Assembly: GCF_000328705.1 (NCBI RefSeq)
Contig: NC_019673.1
Coordinates: 1,550,001 to 1,614,000, forward strand
Origin: Saccharothrix espanaensis DSM 44229
GTDB lineage: Bacteria; Actinomycetota; Actinomycetes; Mycobacteriales; Pseudonocardiaceae
Direction of reading: 5' to 3'
DNA: 64,000 nucleotides
Part shown: piece after piece, positions 409 to 2,562 of the stretch
Layout: each line of letters begins with the position of its first letter
How positions within the stretch are numbered: the first letter of the stretch is position 1
Position numbers and translations under genes: made by a program
Notes under the pieces: generated by a model
The model's input: the letters and a program-made list of their open reading frames with translations, nothing else
Database searches by the model: none
Told to the model about the DNA's origin: nothing

Positions 409-2562
409 GTGGCCGACACCGCTGACAACAAGCCGCAGTCCGGCCACGCCGCGGCTGACGCCCAGTCCAAGTTCGCCGTGCCCGACGGCGCGGTGCTCGC
501 CCTGCTCGGGTCGCGTGACGAGAACCTCCGGCTCGCCGAAGAGCTGCTCGACGCCGACGTGCACGTGCGCGGCAACGAGATCACCCTCTCCGGCCCGCCC
601 GCCGACGTCGCCTTCGCCGAACGGGTCTTCGGTGAACTGGTCACCCTCGCCAGCCGCGGCCAGGAGATCGGCCAGGACACCGTCCGCCGCACGGTCGCGA
701 TGCTGTCCGCGGGCACCGGCGAATCGCCGGCCGAGGTGCTCAGCCTCGACATCATCTCCCGCCGCGGCCGCACGATCCGCCCGAAGACGCTGAACCAGAA
801 GCACTACGTCGACGCGATCGACCAGAACACCGTGGTCTTCGGCATCGGCCCGGCCGGCACCGGCAAGACCTACCTGGCGATGGCCAAGGCCGTCCAGGCG
901 CTGCAGGCCAAGCAGGTCAACCGCATCATCCTGACCCGCCCGGCGGTCGAGGCCGGCGAACGCCTCGGCTACCTGCCCGGCACCCTCTACGAGAAGATCG
1001 ACCCCTACCTGCGCCCGCTCTACGACGCCCTGCACGACATGGTCGACCCGGAATCCATCCCGCGCCTCACCCAGGCCGGCACGATCGAGGTCGCCCCCCT
1101 GGCCTACATGCGCGGCCGGGCACAGCCGGTCACCACCCGGGTGCTGACGCCCGAGGGCTTCCGCCCCATCGGCGAACTGCGCGTCGGCGACCTGGTCGTC
1201 GGCTCGAACGGCGAGCCGACCCCGGTGCTCGGCGTCTACCCGCAGGGCGAGAAGCAGATCTACCGGGTCACCGCGCAGGACGGCGCGTCCGTGCTCTGCT
1301 GCGGCGACCACCTGTGGACCGTCCGCACCGCCGCCGACCGCCGGCGCGACAAGCCGTGGCGGGTCCTGGAGACCAAGGAGATGGTCGGCGACCTCCGCGC
1401 CGCGCACCCGCGCCGGTACGAGTTGCCGCTGCTCAGCGCCCCGGTGTGCCTGCCGGAGCGCGAGGTCCCCATGGACCCGTACGCGCTCGGGCTGCTGCTC
1501 GGCGACGGCTGCCCCACCGGTTCCACCACCCCGACGTCCGCCACCGAGGACCAGGAACTGGTCACCGCGCTGGACACGGCCCTGTCCGGGGTCGAGGCCC
1601 GGTGGAAGGGCGGCCCCGACCACACGCTCAACCGCGTGCGGGCGCCCGGCGACGTGATCACCCGCGAGAACCCGGTCACCGGCGTGCTGCGCGCGCTGGG
1701 CCTGGCCGGCACCCGGTCGCACACCAAGTTCGTGCCCGAGGCCTACCTCGACAACAGCGCCGAGATCAGGCTGGGCGTGCTCCAGGGCCTGCTCGACGCC
1801 GACGGAGACCCGGTCACCCAGCTCGGCCGCACCTGCCGCATCCAGTACACGACCACCTCGCCCCGGCTGCGGGACGACGTGGTCGCGCTGGTCCGCTCGC
1901 TCGGCGGCGTCGCCCACGTCCGGCTGCGCGCGGCACCGGGCCGCGAGCCCGGACGCGCGAAAGGGCGTGACATCGCCCACCGCCACGACGCCCACGTCTT
2001 GGACCTCCGCCTGCCCGCGGGCGTCGAGCCGTTCCGGCTGGACCGCAAGCGGCGCAAGTACCAGGGCACGGGCGGCGGCCGGCCGATGCGGTTCATCGAC
2101 GCCATCGAGCCCGAGGGCCGCGCCGAAGCGGTCTGCATCCAGGTCGCGGCGGCCGACTCGCTGTACGTCACCGAGGACTACCTGCTCACCCACAACACGC
2201 TCAACGACGCGTTCATCATCCTCGACGAGGCGCAGAACACCACGCCCGAGCAGATGAAGATGTTCCTCACCCGGCTCGGCCACGGCTCCAAGATCGTGGT
2301 GACCGGCGACATCACCCAGGTCGACCTGCCCGGCGGGCAGCGGTCCGGGCTCAAGGTCGTCCGGGACATCCTCGAAGGCGTCGAGGACGTCCACTTCTCC
2401 CTCCTGACCAGCAGCGACGTCGTCCGGCACCGGCTGGTCGCCGACATCGTCGACGCCTACGAGAAGTGGCAGGTCGAGCAGGAGGAGCACGACCTCGGCG
2501 ACGACCGGAGGCCGCACGCCGGACCCGGTGCGCGGTCGCGCGGGCAGCGCCGGGGACGATAG
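409..2562 (+). CDS. phoH: PhoH family ATPase, precursor interrupted by an intein
   Basis: The precursor is 717 residues. Removing the 359-residue intein leaves 358 residues, the usual size of actinobacterial PhoH1. The N-extein carries the Walker A loop [15 protein letters not shown] and the PhoH segment [18 protein letters not shown]. The C-extein resumes with [14 protein letters not shown] (Walker B), then [14 protein letters not shown]. PhoH is a cytosolic P-loop ATPase, linked in some bacteria to RNA metabolism and often found next to ybeY as here. GTG 409 is chosen because GAGG lies just before it and a likely -10 box lies at 339-344; an in-frame GTG at 322 is the alternative. The stop is 5 nt before ybeY, so the genes are probably co-transcribed. 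A GNAT gene is divergent upstream. Confidence 0.93.
1120..2196 (+). mobile_element. Class 3 intein with LAGLIDADG homing endonuclease inside PhoH
   Basis: The intein spans 359 residues inserted after extein residues AYMRGR, directly before [13 protein letters not shown]. It begins [20 protein letters not shown], a splicing block A with Ala instead of Cys/Ser at position 1, and ends YLLTHN with Thr as the +1 extein residue. It carries the non-contiguous W-C-T signature of class 3 inteins: Trp66 two residues after the block B His64 (GDHLW), Cys339 at block F position 4 (AVCIQV), and Thr357 two residues before the terminal Asn359. The central part has two dodecapeptide motifs, LGLLLGDG and [11 protein letters not shown], each with its acidic catalytic residue, so a LAGLIDADG endonuclease is probably intact. 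Splicing is inferred: the ATPase is split between Walker A and Walker B, so an active PhoH requires excision. Confidence 0.92.

Follow-up and report, generated by a model that had tools for sequence, protein, structure and literature searches.

The phoH locus and its intein

The DNA examined here, called the window below, is a stretch of 64,000 nucleotides from the chromosome of the soil actinomycete Saccharothrix espanaensis DSM 44229 (NC_019673.1, positions 1,550,001 to 1,614,000), and coordinates are those of the window unless another genome position is given. A phoH precursor reading frame of 746 amino acids occupies 322..2562 on the + strand and is open throughout; the in-frame GTG at 409, rather than 322, is likely the true start of the gene. 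Its translation matches the Pfam PhoH domain (PF02562, E 1.2e-89) in two stretches, positions 2-117 and 116-205 of the domain, which flank an in-frame class 3 intein of 359 amino acids (1120..2196, + strand). The Walker A motif GPAGTGKT lies upstream in the N-extein (847..870, +) and the Walker B strand IILDEA directly downstream in the C-extein (2215..2232, +), showing that the preliminary description, made from the letters of the window alone, had placed the insertion correctly between the two motifs. Its further claim, that PhoH activity depends on splicing, agrees with this position as far as the sequence goes, since with an insert at this place the ATPase core would become whole again only after its excision.

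The gene that follows phoH is the endoribonuclease gene ybeY (2568..3122, +; PF02130, E 2.8e-35), and further downstream are genes for a CorC/HlyC-type CNNM-CBS membrane protein (3133..4437, +) and an era-like GTPase with a KH domain (5656..6552, +). YbeY-linked PhoH proteins act with YbeY in ribosome maturation. Because phoH adjoins ybeY, its role is likely with YbeY and not in phosphate starvation. A second gene of the PhoH family, elsewhere in the S. espanaensis genome (803142-803756), has no insert.

Class 3 signature and its conservation

Class 3 inteins, a rarer type, are defined by Trp at B:12, Cys at F:4 and Thr at G:5 (PMC3196547, PMC5050341). Translation of 1120..2196 gives A1, H64, W66, C339, T357, H358 and N359, followed by the Thr codon of TLNDAF, and thereby confirms every residue that had been put forward as the class 3 signature (the Ala start, W66, C339 and T357 before N359). 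Position 1 is Ala1, so there is no Cys or Ser nucleophile at this place. Block B, with Cys60, Cys61, His64 and Trp66 (1297..1317, +), aligns to the solved replicative-helicase inteins in PDB chains 6bs8, 6rix and 6riy (E 2.5e-5 to 9.5e-5), which belong to class 3 and come from M. smegmatis and M. chimaera; W66, two residues after H64, falls on the Trp of 6bs8. Cys339 (2134..2136, +), the predicted first nucleophile, pairs with the block F Cys of 6riz, the gp41-1 intein, in a weakly matching C-terminal piece (1.2 bits), and it is the sole invariant Cys of the PhoH inteins (135/135 aligned rows). Both results agree with block F position 4 for C339, as had been proposed. Thr357, His358 and Asn359 form block G (2188..2196, +), and the +1 Thr (2197..2199, +), a native PhoH residue, is the predicted second nucleophile.

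The two LAGLIDADG motifs and their acidic residues, also noted in the preliminary description, are present: YALGLLLGDG with Asp129 at its Asp (1480..1509, +), which is also seen in an alignment with PI-SceI, and LQGLLDADG with Asp228 (1780..1806, +). The Pfam family LAGLIDADG_3 matches the window intein above its cut-off (E 2.8e-6).

The residues W-C-T-H-N and the +1 Thr were found in all 138 distinct PhoH inteins collected, by a junction pattern that allowed T, S, C or A at +1. Eighty of the 138 came from a scan with peptides holding W66 or C339 and are therefore biased towards those residues; the other 58, found by profile or PhoH domain, keep the whole set as well (58/58), as do 12/12 further PhoH inteins of the phylum sample. 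Of the 138, 126 start with Ala and 12 with Ser. Tori and Perler are said to have described, in 2011, class 3 inteins with Ser1. Three loci (L082, L086, L120) were left out of the 135-row alignment and of the extein comparison when the Walker A pattern was not found in them, the reason being GSGKT in two and an unreadable stretch in one. L202 (G298:C1:708613-709695) is another full-length PhoH intein; its W-C-T is intact and it has both catalytic Asp, but the next codon is CCT for Pro, which the junction pattern did not admit, so that it does not count among the 138. From its sequence, the +1 Pro should stop ligation, and a sequencing error, decay and an unusual reaction would look alike here.

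Occupied and empty sites

PhoH was present in 25/25 genomes of the genus group. In 16 of them it is unbroken, and nine carry inteins of 305-360 amino acids at the same residue, which argues that the insertion is not a chance event. The empty AYMRGR/TLNDAF site that the preliminary description had suggested looking for in close relatives was thus seen, as AYMRGR|TLNDAF in 14 genomes and AYMRGR|SLNDAF in two.

Wider samples, which overlap with one another and with the genus group, gave a similar mixture. The family sample held the intein in 45/297 genomes from 17/46 genera, all 45 junctions being read; among the matches listed, 251/297 genomes had a best PhoH match of E 1.3e-94 or lower, implying an unbroken domain, and one draft (G206) had neither the intein nor a strong PhoH match. 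For the order, 42/298 genomes carry a PhoH intein, 37 of which were read and five (G322, G347, G365, G423, G453) rest on the match score. Sixteen PhoH inteins were read at the junction among 396 genomes of the phylum sample, 12 of them new and four already in other samples; one more intein (G553) is cut by a contig end, which leaves its host gene unread and the intein outside this count. A scan of the collection gave 208 relatives, and the 80 that were kept, from Streptomyces, Lentzea, Pseudonocardia, Amycolatopsis, Kutzneria and others, all lie at the PhoH site. The ten most distant PhoH inteins, nine of them from other families of the order, occupy the same site and are 58-63% identical.

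The target site was present in all 46 empty genes read, 16 from the genus and 30 from the family, the latter being the best-scoring loci of the 251. These empty sites differ from the flanks of the window intein at 1-8 of 36 bases, and the variation among them falls mainly on third codon positions.

Endonuclease state and selection

Both catalytic Asp residues are kept in 117/138 PhoH inteins by one pattern, and the endonuclease is intact in 119/138 by a second pattern, which also requires 350 amino acids. Within the genus, the second catalytic Asp is lost in four of the nine copies, one of which also lacks the first motif. Three near-sister phoH genes carry an intact intein (G002), a decayed intein (G010) and an empty site (G012), respectively. 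Compared segment by segment, their flanks are 94-100% identical in DNA between 900 bases before and 300 bases past the site, and over the next 90 bases the empty phoH of G012 stops lining up (34%).

To quantify selection, dN/dS was estimated for the 1808 pairs with dS of 0.1-1.2, taken from 1942 pairs with 80-98.5% intein identity. The median over these non-independent pairs was 0.17 in the endonuclease, against 0.10 in both the splicing blocks and the nearby extein. In the genus, the endonuclease value was 0.27-0.46 in ten pairs of intact copies versus 0.32-0.86 in 26 pairs with a broken copy, while the splicing blocks stayed at 0.09-0.37 overall and at 0.14-0.37 in those 26 pairs; genus copies with a single lost Asp (L156) overlap the range of the intact ones, and L020, which has lost the most sequence, gives a poor alignment. 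Relaxation of the endonuclease is visible in the genus table only; across the family, pairs that include a broken copy (0.169, n=160) did not differ from intact pairs (0.174, n=1648). Read from the sequences, the intact, decayed and empty alleles together with selection in the genus are the pattern of a homing cycle, and the window intein is probably still mobile.

Relatives in bacteria and viruses

A phylogeny with DnaB and phage class 3 inteins, as the preliminary description had proposed, was built as a quick tree of 64 inteins with SH-aLRT and without bootstrap. The PhoH group (15 bacterial inteins and one viral) lies on one side of a branch (SH-aLRT 99), separate from the RecG and DnaB inteins, each of which forms its own group (SH-aLRT 100 each), in a tree that has no class 1 rows as an outgroup. 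The viral member of the PhoH group lies outside the cluster of its bacterial members (SH-aLRT 98).

This viral intein (L265, IMGVR_UViG_3300029915_000731) has W-C-T, is 333 amino acids long and is inserted at exactly the same residue of a short PhoH (L265 2563-4278) on a 100 kb IMG/VR contig, next to a phosphoesterase gene and a helix-turn-helix gene with matches to phage families; three of seven tested genes on the contig have no such matches. It resembles the window intein in protein family, insertion residue, W-C-T and endonuclease motifs and differs in its length, its short PhoH host, the 49% GC of its stretch and an identity of 53% in the best segment. Among the loci read from two viral scans it is the sole intein at the PhoH site. 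In the first scan, where 49 of 80 loci were examined, 47/49 inteins show W-C-T by pattern, and 29/49 (e.g., L267, L270, L277, L285, L295) have Gly-Lys before and Thr after the insert, which is a P-loop position, in assorted proteins. The second scan, with a different alignment, gave 25 loci, among which the first contig (53%), the one whose host was read, is alone in coming close to the PhoH inteins by identity. The "PhoH" of Caudovirales GX15bay (H15) was considered as a phage PhoH intein and rejected, as its exteins have no PhoH site.

The S. espanaensis genome has a second class 3 intein, of 230 amino acids, in RecG (L034, G000:C1:7929564-7930253, -), without an endonuclease and inserted as GSGK|T, between the Walker A Lys and Thr; seven related RecG inteins of 338-344 amino acids were read in other genomes, and RecG is listed as an intein host in a review (PMC5874633). 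Also in S. espanaensis, a radical SAM protein (L037 1054-3177, G000:C1:2622553-2625744) holds an intein-like insert that starts with Cys, as in class 1, and that Pfam Intein_splicing matches below its cut-off. A further W-C-T intein akin to the PhoH group (L222, G530:C38; 231 bits) sits in a reading frame of 880 amino acids, with SWSLAQFSASDK at the start of the C-extein.

Known inteins come close to the window intein in different respects. PDB entries 6bs8 and 6own are presumably DnaBi1 of M. smegmatis, a class 3 intein whose H65 and W67 correspond to H64 and W66 of the window in the block B alignment. It differs in its DnaB host, in having no endonuclease and in carrying Asp62 and Cys48 where the window intein has Cys61 and Ile47. 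The numbering of C48, D62, H65 and W67 in this alignment fits the DnaBi1 paper (PMC6195587). The same source gives PhoHi of Mycobacterium fortuitum and M. xenopi as class 3 W-C-T inteins in a host protein of the same name (Kelley et al. 2018, PMC6195587), in another genus and likened here by name and class, and an intein in PhoH of M. smegmatis is mentioned in another paper (PMC7360933). The intein of Mycobacterium phage Phrappuccino gene 2 is a full-length W-C-T intein with an endonuclease, 42.4% identical over the whole query, that starts with AQPL and ends with THN; unlike the window intein, it lies in a phage gene annotated as terminase or DarB-like and is followed by +1 Cys, and the branch joining it to the PhoH group is not firmly supported (SH-aLRT 90). 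In Campylobacter phage vB_CcoM-IBB_35, phoH is interrupted by an intein, according to a 2012 report (PMC3322345). That intein differs from the window intein in its site after the Walker B Asp-Glu, its Cys start, its SKN end before Cys and its middle, which is not of endonuclease size; the Cys start after Asp-Glu marks it as of class 1 type at a different site.

With class 3 PhoH inteins and the IBB_35 intein in print, the class and the host protein were both known before, and so were phage PhoH inteins in general. In the literature searched, which mostly leaves out subscription papers, there was no Saccharothrix report, no survey of the PhoH site and no paper with the phrase "PhoH intein", and the main text of the S. 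espanaensis DSM 44229 chromosome paper does not contain the word "intein" (PMC3469384). The preliminary description is supported in its signature, the empty sites, the sequence-intact endonuclease and the position that splits the core, and is not supported in the redox or stress switch; it had left out the published mycobacterial class 3 PhoH inteins (PMC6195587) and the adjacency to ybeY.

Discussion

We conclude with high confidence that the insert in the ATPase core of this YbeY-linked PhoH is an intein of class 3 whose LAGLIDADG homing endonuclease is intact in sequence. The anatomy, the empty sites, the conservation, the selection pattern and the decayed copies are read from the sequences, and from them we infer splicing, cleavage and homing. 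Splicing would begin with an attack of Cys339 on the peptide bond between Arg and Ala1, by which the N-extein would move onto Cys339 and then pass to the +1 Thr; Asn359, helped by His358, would cyclise, and ligation of the exteins would yield a PhoH of the usual, unbroken kind. Empty phoH sites are the predicted target of the endonuclease, and repair of the cut would bring in a copy of the intein. When all members of a population carry it, the endonuclease may decay while the splicing parts are kept.

It is extremely unlikely that the insert is instead a decayed one that has ceased to splice and leaves PhoH broken. In favour of this reading, the relative L202 has a +1 Pro that should block ligation and an inactive class 3 intein, Arsp-FB24 Arth_1007, is on record (PMC3196547), but the window copy keeps every catalytic residue, the +1 Thr and the open frame, and the splicing blocks and the extein have equal median dN/dS. 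A recent transfer of the intein from another family, as opposed to long residence in the host family, is also an unlikely reading, for which the identities speak: the window intein has a mean identity of 0.751 to the inteins of 53 Streptomycetaceae and of 0.750 to eight of its own genus, whereas for the exteins the values are 0.715 and 0.930, and intein identity is uncoupled from extein identity over 134 rows (r 0.10). However, fast evolution could yield the same intein identities, the nearest relative is Saccharothrix algeriensis (82%), and a tree of 75 rows has one group of 32 (SH-aLRT 96) with all nine genus rows and most other rows of the same family. The exceptions are four same-family rows outside this group (L174, L175, L177, L178) and two foreign rows inside it, from Streptomyces (L091) and from another family of the order (L183). 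An AU test with six full-length genus rows among the 32 did not reject a single genus clade (p 0.169), and transfer within or between genera is not proven by it. The best-fitting history is one of long residence, in which the intein was repeatedly lost and came back in locally.

That splicing could act as a redox or stress switch, the suggestion of the preliminary description that is not supported here, has a precedent in the related class 3 intein DnaBi1, which is halted by a Cys118-Cys48 disulfide and is also inhibited by zinc (PMC6195587, PMC7360933). A redox trap of this type was rejected, as the alignment puts Ile47 at the place of Cys48 and the column has no Cys in any of 135 PhoH rows (I 87, V 43, T 3, M 2). 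A switch of another kind, in which oxidation would lock Cys339, for example with Cys61 or Cys60, and hold PhoH unspliced until conditions improve, seems very improbable to us. Cys61 does stand where DnaBi1 has Asp62, and Cys is found at 60 or 61 in 131/138 PhoH inteins, but the remaining seven have it at neither, which suits a chemical role like that of the usual Thr and not a switch; class 1 inteins carry Thr at the place of Cys61 (PMC6195587). At position 61, 121 of the 138 have Cys, 14 have Ser and three have Thr. Among the 58 inteins found without a peptide pattern, Ser (13) or Thr (2) replaces Cys (43) in 15, and the 12 of the phylum sample have Cys in nine and Thr in three. The equivalent residue is Asp in the ten DnaB and five RecG inteins read, and in 47 viral inteins it is Cys in 21, Asp in 14, Ser in six, Gly in four and Thr in two; as Cys61 is common in viral class 3 inteins too, the variation is one seen elsewhere and gives no evidence for a sensor. 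In addition, 251/297 family genomes, among the matches listed, appear to manage without the intein. A related idea, to which we give a very low probability, is that Cys61, which in most PhoH class 3 inteins replaces the block B Asp or Thr next to the scissile bond, gives, often with Cys60, two to three thiols in the active site and that a reversible disulfide of Cys339, formed by a route other than that of DnaBi1, makes the supply of PhoH thiol-dependent. If this were true, the thiol state of the cell would govern how much PhoH is available to YbeY, and through it the maturation of ribosomes.

Taken by itself, the S. espanaensis intein is ordinary, and it is the PhoH set that is useful. Its active site is of class 3 but has Cys, Ser or Thr in place of Asp at block B position 7, which allows the role of this residue to be tested. 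With one site in one gene and with intact, decaying and empty alleles in near-sisters as well as a virus-borne copy, it would make a good natural system for the homing cycle.
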